A stretch of DNA of 43,346 nt from a virus. Position 1 is the first letter of the stretch; every line of letters begins with the position of its first letter. The stretch lies in IMG/VR virus record IMGVR_UViG_3300044941_000427, positions 1 through 43,346 of that record; one strand, given 5' to 3'. Of the stretch, positions 21,362-28,244 are shown one piece after another. Under the pieces are notes generated by a model. The model was given only the letters and a program-made list of their open reading frames with translations, was not told the DNA's origin and made no database searches. Both the position numbers and the translations under genes were made by a program.

Positions 21362-22098
21362 CGAAGCGCGCTTCTGTCCTCGCGGGATTGCGGCCAGGCG
21401 ATCGGATCGGTCGTTGGACCATCATCGCGCCCGCGTCGGCGCTGAGGAGTCCCCCGGGACGTGTCCGGCCGCGATGGCTCTGCCGTTGCGAATGCGGCAG
21501 CGAGAAGGTGGTGCTCGCCCAAAGCCTCGTCCTGGCGTTGCGGTCGTCACGCGGCGGCAGCCGAAGCTGTGGCTGCCTCGCGGTCATGCGCGCGACGCGG
21601 CATTCTCACACGGCCGGCGGGCGTCCGACGCCCGAGTACACGGCTTGGCTGGCCGCGAAAAAGCGATGCGAGAACCCCCGCAACGCCTCCTACCCGAACT
21701 ATGGTGCGCGCGGCATCTCGATGTGCCCTGCCTGGGCGCGGGATTTTGAGGCCTTCCTGCGCGACATGGGGCCGCGCCCCAGCCCGGCACACAGCCTGGA
21801 TCGCATCGATCCCGACGGCGACTATGCGCCGGGGAACTGCCGCTGGGCGCCACCCGAGATTCAGGCACGAAACAGGCGCGTGACCCGCTGGTATCTGTTC
21901 GAGGGTGAGCAGCTCGTCCTGGCGCAGGTGGCTGCGCGGCTCGGCATCACGCGAGATCAGGCGCGGGCGCTGGAACGGAAACGGCAGCTGCCGGCTTGGC
22001 GCGTTCCCGGAACCGGCGCGAACCGCGCGGCCCCAGCGTTCACGTTCACTCTCGATTTGAATGACGTGCCGGCGGCCGCCGGGGACGCGCTGGCATGA
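21358..22098 (+). CDS. HNH/AP2-type phage protein, possible homing nuclease
   Basis: A 246-residue protein. It begins with a short domain ending in a Cys cluster (WLCRCECGSEKVV, then GSRSCGCLAVM). Next comes the pattern TPEYTAWLAAKKRCENPRNA, YPNYGARGISMCPAW, FLRDMGPRPSPAHSLDRIDP and GNCRWAPPE, typical of phage HNH-like/AP2-containing proteins. The C-terminal 60 residues contain a likely helix-turn-helix (VLAQVAARLGITRDQARALE). Such genes often behave as mobile passengers. Here it is fitted exactly between helicase and primase with four-base overlaps, which argues for stable incorporation. Confidence 0.75.
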   Translation: MTKRASVLAGLRPGDRIGRWTIIAPASALRSPPGRVRPRWLCRCECGSEKVVLAQSLVLALRSSRGGSRSCGCLAVMRATRHSHTAGGRPTPEYTAWLAAKKRCENPRNASYPNYGARGISMCPAWARDFEAFLRDMGPRPSPAHSLDRIDPDGDYAPGNCRWAPPEIQARNRRVTRWYLFEGEQLVLAQVAARLGITRDQARALERKRQLPAWRVPGTGANRAAPAFTFTLDLNDVPAAAGDALA

Positions 22099-24659
22099 TC
22101 GACCTGAACGACGCCGGCCTGGGGCCGGTGCGCCACGACCTGGCGGAGGTCCGCCGCCGCCTCGCCGATACGGCGCGGGACTGGCTGCCGCCGCTGTTCC
22201 CGAACGCGCGGCGCGCCCCGGACGGCAGGACGCTGCGCTGCGCCGACCTCTCCGGCCGGCCGCCCCGCGGCGAGGGCTCCTGCGTGATTCACCTCGAGGG
22301 GCGCTTCGCCGGCTGGGGCTTCGACCACGCCACCGGCGAGAGCGCCGGGCCGATCGACATGCTCGCCCACGGCACCGGCGCGGCGGATGCCCGCCTCTTC
22401 GACGAGGCCGCGCGGCTCGCCCGCATGGATCGGCCGGCGCCGCCGCCGCGCCCTCCCGAGCCGAGGCCCGACCACAGCCGGGAGGTCGCGCGCATCCTGG
22501 ACGGATGCGTTCCGCCCGCGGGGACGGCGGCGGAGGCCTACCTCCGGGGCCGCGGCCTCGCGCTGCCGGACAGCCCCGACCTGCTGTTCCATCCCGACCT
22601 CGCCGACTTCGAGAGCCGGCGCGGCTGGCCGGGCATGGTCGCGGTGGTGCGGGACGCGGCCGGCGAGGCCACCGGCGGCCTCCACCGCACCTACCTGCTC
22701 GACGACGGCTCCGGGAAGGCGCCGCCGGGCAAGAAGATGCTCGGGCCCGTCGCCGGCGGGACGGTGCGGCTCGCGCCGATGCCCGGGGACGGGCGGATCG
22801 GCGTGGCGGAGGGGATCGAGACCGCGCTCGCCGCCATGGCCCTGTTCGGCGTCCCCACCATGGCGGCGCTCTCGGCCGACGGGCTGCGGCGCTGGCAGTG
22901 GCCGGAGGGAACCCGCCACGTCACCATCTTCGCCGATGCCGGGCATGCCGGGATGCAGGCCGCGGCGACGCTGGCGGATCGGCTGAACCTGGCGGACATC
23001 CCCTCGCGCATCATCGCCCCGCTGCACGGCGACGACTTCAACGACGACCTACGGCGCGGGGTAACCGCTGCCGACTACGAGCAGGCGGCAGGCGCGGAGC
23101 CGAAAGCACCCGCAACCGCGGCGGCGCCCGCGACGGTGGAAGAGCTGCTCGCCGCCGCCTCCAGCCTCACCCGCCCGCCTGACTCCGAGCCGCTCGCCGA
23201 CCTGCTGGGCCGGCTGGCCCTGGCGCGCCTCGATCCCCTCCCGGAGCGCCAAGTCCTCGCCGCGGTGAAGACTGCGACCGGCATCGCCGTCTCCATCCTG
23301 GAGAAGCAGCTGGTCGAGCTACGCCGACGGGTGAACGCGACCGGCGACGTCCGCCGCCCGCCCGTCCGGCCGCCGTGGGCCTCGCTGCTGCGGATCGACG
23401 CCGGCGGCGCGCCGGAGCGCAACGAGGCCAACGTCATCACGGCGCTGTCGCTCGACGCTGCCTTCACCGGCGCGCTCATGTTCGACGAATTCAGCCAGGA
23501 GATCATCGTCGCCCGGGCGCTGCCCTGGGATCCGGCAGGCACGGTGCTCCCCCGCCCCTGGGGCGAGGCCGACGACGTGCGCTGCGCCGAGTGGCTGCAG
23601 CGGCACGAGATCAATGTCCCGCCCGTGGTAGTCGGCCGCAGCGTCGTCGCCGTGTCGCGTAACATCCGCATCCACCCCGTGCGCGACTACCTCGAGGCGC
23701 TGGCCTGGGACGGCACGCCGCGCCTCGACACATGGGCCATCGCCTATCTTGGTGCCGAGGATTCGCCGCTCCACCGGAGCATAGCCGCGCTGTGGATGGT
23801 CTCCGCTGTCGCGCGGGTCATGCAGCCCGGCTGCAAGGCCGACCACATGCTGATCCTGGAAGGGCCGCAGGGCATCCGGAAGTCGACCGCCCTGAAGGTG
23901 CTCGCCTCAGAGCCATGGTTCACGGACGAGCTCGCCGAACTCGGCTCGAAGGACGCGGCGCAGCAGATGCGCGGCATCTGGATCATCGAGATGGCGGAGC
24001 TCGACGCCATCGGCCAGGCTGACGTCTCGCGCATCAAGGCCTTCCTCAGTCGCACCACCGACCGCTATCGACCGCCCTACGAGCGCTACGTCGTCACCGT
24101 CCCGCGGCAATGCGTCTTCGCCGGCACGGTGAACCCGGACACCTACCTGCGCGACGAGACGGGGAACCGCCGCTTCTGGCCGCTGCGCTGCGGCGACATC
24201 GACCTCGACGGGCTACGGCACGATCGTGACCAGCTCTGGGCCGAGGCTGTCACGCGCTACCGCGCCGGGGCGCCCTGGTGGATCGAGGACCGGGCGCTGG
24301 TGGCCGAGGCCAGCGCGGCGCAGGAGGCGCGCTACCAGGGCGACGCCTGGGACGCGCGGATCGAGCGCTGGCTCATCTCTGAGCGCAGGCCGGTGAATGT
24401 CGGCGTCGGACACTTCGAGGACTGGCAGGAGCGCTTCGTGCCGAGGGCAAAGCCGCTCACCGACGTCTCGATCGGCGAGGTGCTGGAGCAGGCACTCGGC
24501 ATCGAAGCGGCAAAGTGGACGAAGGGCGACCAGATGCGCGTGGGCGCCTATCTCAAGGCGAAGAAGTGGGAGCGCTACAAGACGACCGGCTCCGCCAAGG
24601 ACGGTGTCGCGCGCGAATGGCGCTACCGCCGGCCCTCCCCGTCAGAGGAGGGCGCGTGA
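22095..24659 (+). CDS. Toprim-VapE fusion primase/helicase
   Basis: An 854-residue fusion. Residues about 1-330 form a primase-like module: a short N-terminal domain (FAGWGFDHATGESAGPIDML), then a Toprim domain with GVAEGIETALAAMA at 236-249 and an acidic IFADAGHAG near 278-286. Residues about 430-800 form a virulence-associated E (VapE) ATPase with Walker A EGPQGIRKST (589-598), IIEMAELDAIGQADVSRIKA, and GNRRFWPLRC. The C-terminus (KWTKGDQMRVGAYLKAKKWE) looks like a winged-helix tail. It should prime and unwind phage DNA. The stop is followed directly by the TGTCCCAC box array, a suggestive neighbour for a replication initiator. Confidence 0.85.
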   Translation: MIDLNDAGLGPVRHDLAEVRRRLADTARDWLPPLFPNARRAPDGRTLRCADLSGRPPRGEGSCVIHLEGRFAGWGFDHATGESAGPIDMLAHGTGAADARLFDEAARLARMDRPAPPPRPPEPRPDHSREVARILDGCVPPAGTAAEAYLRGRGLALPDSPDLLFHPDLADFESRRGWPGMVAVVRDAAGEATGGLHRTYLLDDGSGKAPPGKKMLGPVAGGTVRLAPMPGDGRIGVAEGIETALAAMALFGVPTMAALSADGLRRWQWPEGTRHVTIFADAGHAGMQAAATLADRLNLADIPSRIIAPLHGDDFNDDLRRGVTAADYEQAAGAEPKAPATAAAPATVEELLAAASSLTRPPDSEPLADLLGRLALARLDPLPERQVLAAVKTATGIAVSILEKQLVELRRRVNATGDVRRPPVRPPWASLLRIDAGGAPERNEANVITALSLDAAFTGALMFDEFSQEIIVARALPWDPAGTVLPRPWGEADDVRCAEWLQRHEINVPPVVVGRSVVAVSRNIRIHPVRDYLEALAWDGTPRLDTWAIAYLGAEDSPLHRSIAALWMVSAVARVMQPGCKADHMLILEGPQGIRKSTALKVLASEPWFTDELAELGSKDAAQQMRGIWIIEMAELDAIGQADVSRIKAFLSRTTDRYRPPYERYVVTVPRQCVFAGTVNPDTYLRDETGNRRFWPLRCGDIDLDGLRHDRDQLWAEAVTRYRAGAPWWIEDRALVAEASAAQEARYQGDAWDARIERWLISERRPVNVGVGHFEDWQERFVPRAKPLTDVSIGEVLEQALGIEAAKWTKGDQMRVGAYLKAKKWERYKTTGSAKDGVAREWRYRRPSPSEEGA

Positions 24660-24782
24660 TGTCCCTCCGGCACCTCACTGCGACGCCGTTCTGTCCCACT
24701 GTCCCACCTCGACGATTTCCGCCGGCGAAGTGGGACACGCGCAAGCCCAGCTTTTCCGCGGGTTTGCGGACGTCTGTCCCAC

Positions 24783-24898
24783 TGTCCCACCTGTCCCACC
24801 TGCTCCTTAGAGCCATACGCGAAGGGTGTGATGGGTCGGGACATACATTCTCCTATACGGGTTTAGGCGGGCCGTCCTGGAGTGGGACAGGTGGGACA
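24783..24898. repeat. 17-base perfect inverted repeat within the box array
   Basis: TGTCCCACCTGTCCCAC at 24783-24799 is the exact reverse complement of 24882-24898, with 82 bases between. Each arm is a pair of boxes. The arms could form a cruciform or long RNA stem, or place two binding complexes facing each other. Confidence 0.9.
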
Positions 24899-24912
24899 AG
24901 GCCGCGCAAACA

Positions 24913-24924
24913 TTTGAATTCAAA
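24913..24924. repeat. AT-rich perfect palindrome TTTGAATTCAAA
   Basis: A 12-base perfect palindrome inside an AT-rich stretch (about 24908-24931) of a roughly 70 % GC region, located within the box array. It could be a dimeric regulator site or part of an unwinding element. Confidence 0.7.
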
Positions 24925-25124
24925 CGCATTTCCCCGTCCCACTTCGGTCGCAGGGGTGGGACGAGGCGGGACGGGTGGGACGTCCCGGCGCTCGCGCATG
25001 ACGTATCGCGCCACCGGCCCGCCCGGCCAGGCAACGCGCCCTGGAAGCCGGGCAGCGACGGCGAGCTCCGCCAAGAACCGCGCCGTCGCCGCCCTCACCA
25101 CAGCCATCCCCTCTCGGAGATCCC

Positions 25125-25673
25125 ATGGCTCACGCGACTCTCCCTATGCCCGCTGCCGGCGCAAGCGGCCCGCGCATCGCAGCTCCGCTGCCGGTGGCCC
25201 TCGGCCGCCCCGCCGTCCTCGCCCTCGACCTCGGCACCACGACTGGATGGGCGTTGCGCAGCCAGGACGGTGGCATCACCTCCGGCACTGTCACCTTCCG
25301 TCCCAGCCGCTTCGAGGGCGGCGGCATGCGGTATCTCCGCTTCCGCGGCTGGCTCGGCGAGCTGGCCGCGCTCACCGGCGGCCTCACGCGCATCGCCTTC
25401 GAGGAGGTGCGCTCCCACGCCGGCACCGATGCCGCGCATCTCTACGGCGGCTTCCTCGCGCACGTGTCGGCCTGGTGCGAGGAGCGCGGCGTCGCCTACG
25501 AGGGCGTGCCGGTCGGCACCATCAAGCGCTTCGCCACAGGCCGCGGCAACGCCGACAAGGCGGCGATGATCGCGGCGGTGCGCGCCCGCGGGTTCGCACC
25601 TGCGGACGACAACGAGGCGGATGCCATCGCCCTTCTGCTCTGGGCGACCGACCCGCAGGGTGGTCGGGCATGA
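25125..25673 (+). CDS. RuvC-like Holliday junction resolvase
   Basis: A 182-residue RNase H-fold nuclease. The first acidic residue is D35 in LALDLGTTTGWAL, followed by FEEVR (E93/E94) and a C-terminal acidic cluster ADDNEADAIALLLWA (about 160-174). The segment VPVGTIKRFATGRGNADKAA is typical of phage RuvC-like resolvases. It would cut branched DNA during replication/recombination or before packaging. ATG at 25125 has GGAGA four bases upstream. The stop overlaps the next start by four bases (ATGA). Confidence 0.85.
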   Translation: MAHATLPMPAAGASGPRIAAPLPVALGRPAVLALDLGTTTGWALRSQDGGITSGTVTFRPSRFEGGGMRYLRFRGWLGELAALTGGLTRIAFEEVRSHAGTDAAHLYGGFLAHVSAWCEERGVAYEGVPVGTIKRFATGRGNADKAAMIAAVRARGFAPADDNEADAIALLLWATDPQGGRA

Positions 25674-26441: not shown

Positions 26442-26747
26442 CGATGCGCGAACGGGGCGGTCTCCACCGTCCCGTTCGCGCTGTTACAATTCGCCCGCTG
26501 GCGGCTTGCAAATCGAGTTGGCTAAAGTGGTGACACGTCGAGAAGGTGCGTCGGGCACCGCGGCTCCCGAGCCACTCGCCCGCTGATCAGCCACTGCGGC
26601 TCTTGAGCCGCAGGGTCCTTCCTGGCCCCGCCGTATGCGGGGGGCGGAAGCGCGCAAGGTTCCTAGCGCCAGGCCAGTTTTCCAGGTTGCCAGCGCCGCG
26701 CAGTTGCCAGCAGCGCCGGCCACCGTTCCACGATCAGGCAGGTGCAG
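26442..26747. other. Gap before the ParB-methyltransferases with two hairpins
   Basis: No gene is visible in these 306 bases. Besides the hairpin at 26446-26481 there is a second one, CTGCGGCT-CTTG-AGCCGCAG (26594-26613), and between them a less GC-rich stretch (26482-26530) that could hold a promoter, for example TTACAA at 26484 with a poor -10. The sequence ttgccagc also recurs near 26689 and 26703. Confidence 0.4.
26446..26481 (+). terminator. Strong hairpin after the early operon
   Basis: GCGCGAACGGG (26446-26456) pairs perfectly with CCCGTTCGCGC (26471-26481), and after one G-T pair the inner CGGT/ACCG adds four more pairs around a CTCC loop. It begins five bases after the DUF6456-like gene stop. 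There is no T-run, so it may terminate weakly, protect the mRNA, or act as an antitermination site. Confidence 0.5.
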
Positions 26748-28244
26748 ATGCCTCAGGCCCCCTGGGCTGCGAGCGCCGTCGAGGCGCGCGCGGTCGCCGC
26801 GCTGCTGCCCTACGCCGGCAATGCGCGCACGCATTCGCCCGAGCAGGTGGCGCAGATCGCGGCCAGCATCCTCGAATTCGGCTTCGTCGCGCCGGTGCTG
26901 GTCGACGAGCGCGGCGAGCTCATCGCCGGCCACGGCCGGCTGCTGGCCGCGAAGTCCCTCGGCCTCGCGACCGTCCCGACCATCGTCCGCGCGGGGCTGA
27001 CCGAGGCCCAGAAGGCAGCGTATCGGCTCGCCGACAATCGCATCGCGCTGAACGCCGGCTGGGACGAGGCGCTGCTCTCGGCCGAGGTCGCGAAGCTGCA
27101 GGAGATGGGCGGCGTCGACCTGGCGCTGACCGGCTTCGACGGCGCCGAGATCGAGCGGCTCCTGGCCGGGCTGGAAACCGATGCCGGCAACCTGCCGGCG
27201 CCGGCGGTTGCCAGCGGGGCCGCGCTGACAACTGGCAACCAGCCGGACGCGGATGGCGCGGAGCCGGCGGAAGACCCCGCGGATGCGGAGCCTGAGCCGC
27301 CCCGCAAAGCCGTCGCACGCGTCGGCGACATCTGGATGCTCGGCGAGCACCGCCTGGCCTGCGGCGACAGCACGAACCGCAGCACCGTCGCGCGCGTGAT
27401 GGGACCGGAGCGCGCGGTGCTGCTGTTCACCTCGCCGCCCTACGGGAACCAGCGGGACTACACCACCGGCGGCGTCTCGGATTGGGATGCGCTGATGCAA
27501 GGCGTGTTCGCGCATCTCGACGGCGCGCTGCGGCGCGACGCGCAGGTGCTGGTGAATCTCGGCCTGATCCACCGCGACGGGGAGTGGCAGCCCTATTGGC
27601 AGGGCTGGCTGGACTGGATGCGCGGCCAGGGCTGGCGGCGCTTCGGGCTGTACGCCTGGGACCAGGGGCCGGGCCTACCGGGCGACTGGAACGGCCGCCT
27701 CGCGCCGGCCTTCGAGCTGTTGTTCCACTTCAACCGCGAGGCGCGCCAGGCCAACAAGATCGTGCCGTGCAAATGGGCCGGCACGCCGAACAAGGGGAGC
27801 GGGCTTCGCGCCGCCGACGGCGAGGTGAAGGCCTACACCCATATCGGCCTGCCGGTGCAGGAGATGCGCATCCCCGACAGCGTGCTGCGCATCACCCGGC
27901 ACAAGGGCCGCGGCATCGAAACGGAGCACCCAGCGGTGTTCCCCGTCGCGCTGCCCGAGTTCCTGATGCGCGCCTACACCGACGAGGGCGACGTCGTGTT
28001 CGAGCCGTTCGGCGGCTCCGGCACGACCATCCTGGCTGGCCAGCGGACCGGGCGGCGCGTCCGCGCCATCGAGCTCGCGCCGGCCTATGTCGACCTGGCG
28101 ATCGCCCGCTGGCGGATGCTGCATCCCGACCTGCCCGTCACGCTGGCCGAGGACGGTCGCGGCTACGACGCCGTCGCCGCGGCGCGCGCGAGCCTTCAGG
28201 CAACGCCCGAGGAGGGCGGTAAGGCGATGGCCGATGCAGCCTGA
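26748..28244 (+). CDS. ParB-domain DNA methyltransferase (TSPPY type)
   Basis: A 498-residue fusion. The N-terminal ParB/Srx-like nuclease domain has YAGNARTHSPEQVAQIAASI, LIAGHGRLLAAKSLGL and RLADNRIALNAGWDE (residues 22-106). The methyltransferase follows with TSPPYG at 228-233 and EPFGGSGTT near the C-terminus, motif IV before motif I. TSPPY is typical of N4-cytosine methyltransferases. An in-frame GTG at 26742 is an alternative start. No restriction partner is adjacent, so this is a solitary phage methylase, possibly protecting phage DNA from host restriction. It overlaps the next methylase by 11 bases. Confidence 0.85.
   Translation: MPQAPWAASAVEARAVAALLPYAGNARTHSPEQVAQIAASILEFGFVAPVLVDERGELIAGHGRLLAAKSLGLATVPTIVRAGLTEAQKAAYRLADNRIALNAGWDEALLSAEVAKLQEMGGVDLALTGFDGAEIERLLAGLETDAGNLPAPAVASGAALTTGNQPDADGAEPAEDPADAEPEPPRKAVARVGDIWMLGEHRLACGDSTNRSTVARVMGPERAVLLFTSPPYGNQRDYTTGGVSDWDALMQGVFAHLDGALRRDAQVLVNLGLIHRDGEWQPYWQGWLDWMRGQGWRRFGLYAWDQGPGLPGDWNGRLAPAFELLFHFNREARQANKIVPCKWAGTPNKGSGLRAADGEVKAYTHIGLPVQEMRIPDSVLRITRHKGRGIETEHPAVFPVALPEFLMRAYTDEGDVVFEPFGGSGTTILAGQRTGRRVRAIELAPAYVDLAIARWRMLHPDLPVTLAEDGRGYDAVAAARASLQATPEEGGKAMADAA

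Follow-up and report, generated by a model that had tools for sequence, protein, structure and literature searches.

In a 43,346-base virus record of the IMG/VR database (IMGVR_UViG_3300044941_000427; this whole stretch is referred to below as the window), a dense array of short repeats at 24693-24981 follows directly on the gene for a Toprim-VapE primase-helicase. Analysis of the sequence makes it very probable that this array is a cis-acting replication origin of a phage or prophage and that its repeats are iterons recognized by the winged helix at the C terminus of VapE. The array lies 3' of the gene in a mirror-like layout that is conserved among relatives. Its repeated word changes in concert, and these changes co-vary with residues ~800-847 of VapE. 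An earlier sequence-only reading of this DNA had put forward a candidate replication origin at this position. That proposal is supported by the recurrence of the array at VapE loci, by its co-variation with the DNA-binding end of the protein, and by the presence of this anatomy in annotated origins of phages Sfi21 and P4.

A mirror-like repeat array 3' of the VapE gene

The array comprises 11 exact copies of GTCCCAC or its reverse complement, GTGGGAC, in a span of 289 bases. When 24660-25124 was shuffled 20,000 times with dinucleotides preserved, the mean copy number was 0.16 and the maximum was 3. Elsewhere in the window, only two stray copies were found (10620 and 11001). The sequence-only reading had counted eleven copies in about 290 bases, and this count was confirmed, as were the start-to-start spacing of 8 to 9 bases inside clusters and a perfect 17-base inverted repeat with arms at 24783-24799 and 24882-24898.

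Not noted in that reading was the near mirror symmetry of the array, which runs F F R / F F F / core / R R / F R R (F and R, copies on the forward and reverse strands). Block 1 (24693-24736) contains copies at 24693-24699, 24701-24707, and 24730-24736 (reverse). Block 2 (24776-24799, forward strand) contains copies at 24776-24782, 24784-24790, and 24793-24799 and holds the left 17-base arm. Block 3 (24882-24898, reverse strand; copies at 24882-24888 and 24891-24897) forms the right arm, and block 4 (24936-24981; copies at 24936-24942, 24956-24962 [reverse], and 24975-24981 [reverse]) is block 1 mirrored. Degenerate copies of the word start at 24661, 24836, and 24966, the last of which lies in block 4 and reads GCGGGAC.

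The two inward-pointing arrays enclose a core of 81 bases (24801-24881), which we propose as the region of melting and priming. The core is 43% AT and the window 28% AT, so that the AT-rich stretches of the sequence-only reading are AT rich relative to the window and only in that sense. The core contains the conserved element ACATACATTCTCCTATACGGGTTTAGG (24841-24867), and a TTTTCCTATA(C/G)GG-like stretch reappears in relatives that carry other words. The VapE gene ends at 24659, with 33 bases between its stop codon and the array. On the far side, the first conserved gene is RuvC-like and begins at 25125; the array does lie directly after the Toprim-VapE gene, as had been claimed.

Arrays across VapE loci

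The sequence-only reading had suggested looking for the array beside the VapE genes of relatives. Viral and bacterial contigs supplied 150 VapE loci that could be used, and for each locus the array word was taken as the most repeated downstream word, sought without prior assumption. An array was present 3' of the VapE gene in 132 of the 150 loci. A 450-bp stretch with at least 7 copies of a single 7-mer was observed downstream of the gene in 122/150 loci, in none of 131 upstream controls, and inside the gene in 0/150. In 111 of 122 loci, the copies around the largest gap pointed inward (F|R). The commonest spacing of same-strand copies across loci was 9, 8, or 10 bases, the core was 75 to 92 bases long in most relatives, and mean core AT was 50%, compared with 33% for the loci.

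The word itself varied. GTCCCAAC-type words were found in 51 loci, GTCCCAC-type words in 32, and CACC-type words (GTCACCA and variants) in 25; rarer words included GTCCAACC (12 loci), GTCCTACC (4 loci), and single others. Array types distinguished by word include TGTCCCAC, GTCCAACC, and GTCACCAC. Among named phages, the words 3' of the primase gene are TGTCCCAC/GTCCTAC in Pseudomonas phage vB_Pae_U5, GGGGTGACC in Marinobacter phage PS3, GGTTGTTAC in APSE-1, and GGTAAACG in Bacteroides phage F2. The element CAATGGGTT was seen beside the arrays of otherwise unrelated phages (L279, L281, L283, L154, and L285 [reverse complement]).

An initial count in which the array was missing from 62 loci was rejected, since most of these carry it 1 to 4.6 kb further downstream. 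In ~40 loci (L155, L165, L176, L187, L228, and ~35 more), 1 to 4.6 kb of variable genes lies between the VapE stop codon and the array. These inserted genes are often on the opposite strand, and the position appears to be a cargo site beside the origin.

A scan that started from the DNA, with the tandem word TGTCCCACTGTCCCAC, yielded 117 viral loci, 77 of which had a VapE/D5-type gene no more than 3 kb away. The companions in this set were VapE (72 loci), RuvC (18 loci), and a ParB-methylase (11 loci). Several of the remaining loci adjoin other replicative helicases, namely, AAA_25 RepA-like proteins (L005, L008, L010, and L099), D5/DUF5906 (L024 and L097), and DUF927 with a Cch-type helix-turn-helix (L053).

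Co-variation of the word with the VapE C terminus

The word changes completely where it changes. The window contains no GTCCAAC, and the related locus L127 contains 10 copies of GTCCAAC and no GTCCCAC; the core around ATACATTTTCCTATACGGG is still alignable despite this change. A tree built from residues 1-745 of 78 VapE proteins with arrays requires at least 20 word changes, the possible minimum being 8. Raw mutual information between VapE columns and the word was dominated by phylogeny and was set aside in favor of tree-based and matched-pair tests. In 521 primase pairs sharing 85% or more identity across residues 1-745, divergence over residues 800-847 was 7.6% for pairs with the same word versus 38.2% for pairs with different words, a gap reached in 0 of 5,000 within-cluster permutations. 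Excess divergence in the controls was 0.017 for VapE residues 1-745, 0.022 for the Dda-like helicase, 0.032 for RuvC, and 0.018 for the ParB-methylase; orf_20917 was left out of the control genes because its frame is poorly alignable. Within clades, the nearest neighbor over residues 800-847 predicted the word in 93% of cases (neighbors under 85% identity), and the nearest neighbor over residues 1-745 predicted it in 39%. The picture is one of an array and a winged helix that evolve as matched partners.

The variable end of VapE corresponds to a C-terminal winged-helix domain (codons 793-847; 24471-24635, forward strand), delimited from AlphaFold2 models and the divergence profile; the model of the C terminus has a helix at 810-822 and strands at 826-829 and 842-845. 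The residues linked to the word map to the predicted recognition helix and to the base of the predicted wing. On the helix, codons 810-817 (24522-24545, forward strand) encode K810, G811, and G817 in the window. In the residue/word table, K810 and G817 go with GTCCCAC words, and Ser or Ala at 817 goes with GTCCCAAC-type words. Codon 829 (24579-24581, forward strand) encodes Lys in the window. Gln829 was found in 25/25 loci with CACC words, and Lys or Arg was found at this position in 106 of the 107 other loci. A sign test of the Gln829 association on independent tree pairs gave 5/5 (P = 0.06), limited by the small number of pairs. A PDB search with the VapE sequence returned a single match, 7pds (PriRep1 with double-stranded DNA; 1e-45), which was also the top fold match (1e-20); both matches indicate homology of the proposed initiator to the Rep/PriRep proteins of Staphylococcus aureus pathogenicity islands (SaPIs).

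Proposed mechanism

We suggest that the 8- to 9-base words are iterons that would be bound by the C-terminal winged helix of VapE. The two opposed sets of copies would flank the ~81-bp core with initiator molecules loaded in opposite orientations, the AAA+ helicase part of VapE would melt the core, and the Toprim part would prime it, so that replication would start bidirectionally. In relatives, the word can switch across the whole array in one go, and the proposed reading domain changes along with it, which would keep reader and sites matched. It is also quite possible, if slightly less likely than not, that the origin code is evolvable, with residues 810, 811, 817, and 829 and wing residues 830-841 setting the 8- to 9-base word that is read and the whole array being rewritten or exchanged alongside. 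Under such a code, origin specificities would exclude one another, and prophages and satellites sharing a cell would neither fire nor titrate each other's origins.

Several results weigh against the origin reading. No array was detectable in the available DNA of 18 of the 150 loci, the contig end being the reason for some. Arrays of the TGTCCCAC word also occur beside unrelated helicases (L005, L008, L010, L053, and L099), perhaps by convergence on one word or through reading domains held in common, and since these include AAA_25 and DUF927/Cch proteins, the word alone cannot identify its reader. The isolated C-terminal model matched PriRep1 weakly (E = 0.14), and the Gln829 rule has a single exception, L237. 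Prediction of the word by the nearest neighbor fails across distant clades (33% versus 18%; neighbors under 75% identity), and the words of distal arrays could not be predicted from proximal loci; the code linking residues to word appears only partly readable from these sequences. GC skew, which the sequence-only reading had named as a check, has no clean switch in the window, including at the array; in a mosaic window such as this one, skew neither backs nor refutes an origin.

Alternative explanations

Recombination could swap the array and the adjacent C-terminal codons jointly, in which case their co-variation would not indicate what reads the array. The window and loci L127/L129 do differ over one contiguous tract of ~500 bases comprising the VapE end and the array: DNA identity is ~92% up to near 24460, 40 to 73% over ~24560-25060, and ~90% again before RuvC, and no such dip is seen in L199, L120, and L124, which share the word of the window. 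Because the dip is contiguous, it favors exchange of a C-terminus-plus-array cassette, over point change with gene conversion, as the origin of the L127/L129 switch. Even under cassette exchange, however, the matched pair would be kept together. RuvC, ~140 bases beyond the array, does not co-vary, and L154 and L156 differ in word at 93 to 99% identity over residues 1-745. Furthermore, in loci with over 1 kb between VapE and the array, Gln829 is present in 6/6 CACC loci and Lys or Arg in 34 of 35 others. As the rule holds with the array 1 to 4.6 kb away, adjacency alone does not generate it, and we consider hitchhiking unlikely.

Clustered repeats are also common near promoters and ParB-like proteins, and the phage itself encodes a ParB-N/methyltransferase fusion (26742-28244). 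The array could be an operator or partition site for that protein or a repressor, controlling transcription or segregation, but we judge this to be quite improbable. The word tracks VapE residues 800-847 and not the ParB-methylase, RuvC, or the helicase, VapE is the common companion in the DNA-first set, and the mirror layout around a core resembles an origin. A promoter/terminator scan was empty, with no sigma-70-like promoter in 24500-25300. The master control site that the sequence-only reading had offered in place of an origin is not supported. The other alternative in that reading, a transcribed long-stem RNA in which the 17-base arms pair and the concerted word changes are compensatory stem changes, fared no better and is, in our estimate, most improbable. 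The arms do fold into a stem (z = -2.66), and pairing is preserved through the word change, but a single shared word gives such pairing automatically. The same new word is also taken up in blocks 1 and 4, whose copies lie outside the arms and would not need to change for a helix to be conserved, and copy numbers on the two sides of the core are unequal in many loci. An Rfam search found nothing near the gathering score, only chance matches of microRNA models to inverted words, and co-variation with the DNA-binding domain of a protein is left unexplained.

Genes around the array

The window encodes a recombinase, the Dda-like helicase, VapE, the RuvC-like resolvase, the ParB-N/methyltransferase, a terminase, and a capsid protein. 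The presence of terminase and capsid genes marks it as an ordinary full-size tailed phage or prophage. The proposed initiator (22095-24659, forward strand; 854 amino acids) has the architecture DUF7146/Toprim_3/VapE-like AAA+/C-terminal winged helix, with Pfam matches to VapE (1.5e-85) and Toprim_3 (1.1e-23). Its nearest named relative (94%) is at locus L199, a related prophage of Neoroseomonas alkaliterrae DSM 25895, in whose genome TGTCCCACTGTCCCAC occurs only twice, adjacent on one contig, in agreement with the two sites of the L199 array. Beyond the array lies the RuvC-like Holliday junction resolvase gene (25125-25673, forward strand; PHROG 159, 3.8e-28). The product of 26742-28244 joins a ParB-N domain to an N6/N4 DNA methyltransferase.

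A GC-rich hairpin, GCGACGGCG...CGCCGTCGC, is present at 25050-25094, just before the RuvC start, and is conserved among close relatives; elsewhere among the relatives, this position holds another hairpin, GAAGGCCCAC...GTGAGCCTTC. No Rfam family was found for the hairpin, which is possibly a leader of the resolvase gene. A plasmid search returned no relative of the array, its sole result being a 60-base match to this hairpin.

Significance

To our knowledge, most temperate phage origins are unmapped. A repeated word 3' of a VapE/D5 primase gene offers a sequence rule for finding candidate origins in many phages. The natural series of words and winged helices, with its near-identical pairs (L154/L156 and the window/L127), makes initiator-origin specificity testable by single substitutions, and the matched switching illustrates how a replication enzyme and its probable start site keep in step. 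If the words insulate co-resident replicons, they would account, too, for one kind of compatibility among prophages.

Comparison with known replication origins

Iteron plasmid origins of the RepE and TrfA type likewise have a winged-helix initiator that reads repeats beside an AT-rich region. Their initiators lack primase and helicase domains, however, and their iterons are longer direct repeats, whereas the window has a mirror set of 8-mers. In Streptococcus thermophilus phage Sfi21, a 302-bp noncoding region lies directly 3' of a D5-type primase gene, has short repeats around an AT-rich stretch, and is annotated in its record as an origin of replication and phage inhibitory sequence. Sfi21 differs in its helicase subfamily (Pox_D5/DUF5906), its AGTTACT-type word, and its AT-rich genome. 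Literature searches for VapE with iteron and for Sfi21 with origin and primase found nothing among the papers searched.

The alpha protein of P4 combines a Toprim primase, a helicase, and a C-terminal winged helix that binds origin repeats (PMC4234260). In P4, crr follows immediately on the 3' end of the alpha gene and carries 8-bp type 1 repeats, TGTTCACC, on both strands, with adjacent copies 9 bp apart. The window shares this combination: its Toprim primase-helicase ends in a winged helix, and repeats of 8 bp come straight after the gene. Unlike the window, which has a single mirror array, P4 needs both ori and crr, ~4.5 kb apart, and its crr consists of two 120-bp direct repeats; the alpha C terminus could not be aligned by eye with the VapE end.

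The closest parallel is the pri-rep-ori arrangement of SaPIs and phage-inducible chromosomal islands (PICIs), whose C-terminal domains read iterons (PMC7581432, PMC6092414) and whose PriRep1 (7pds) is matched by VapE. SaPI Rep uses its C-terminal domain to read repeats that follow closely on its own gene, and Cch2 from the staphylococcal cassette chromosome mec (SCCmec) shows specific binding to its repeats through the isolated C terminus (PMC7581432). Every PICI origin contains a pair of iteron sets with an AT-rich region between them, and a plasmid could be maintained by a rep-ori segment (PMC6092414). The origin candidate of the window likewise comes immediately after a (pri)rep gene of the VapE/D5 type. 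PICIs are small satellites without structural genes of their own, whereas the window encodes a terminase large subunit and major head/protease genes and belongs to a full-size tailed phage of Alphaproteobacteria. Its initiator has the Toprim primase fused in one protein, and VapE loci switch word within a conserved layout. The origin type is already known; what is new is its occurrence in full-size phages of this group, together with a natural series of words and readers. This indicates that the layout, regarded as unique to PICIs (PMC6092414), reaches beyond satellites and is widespread in phages.
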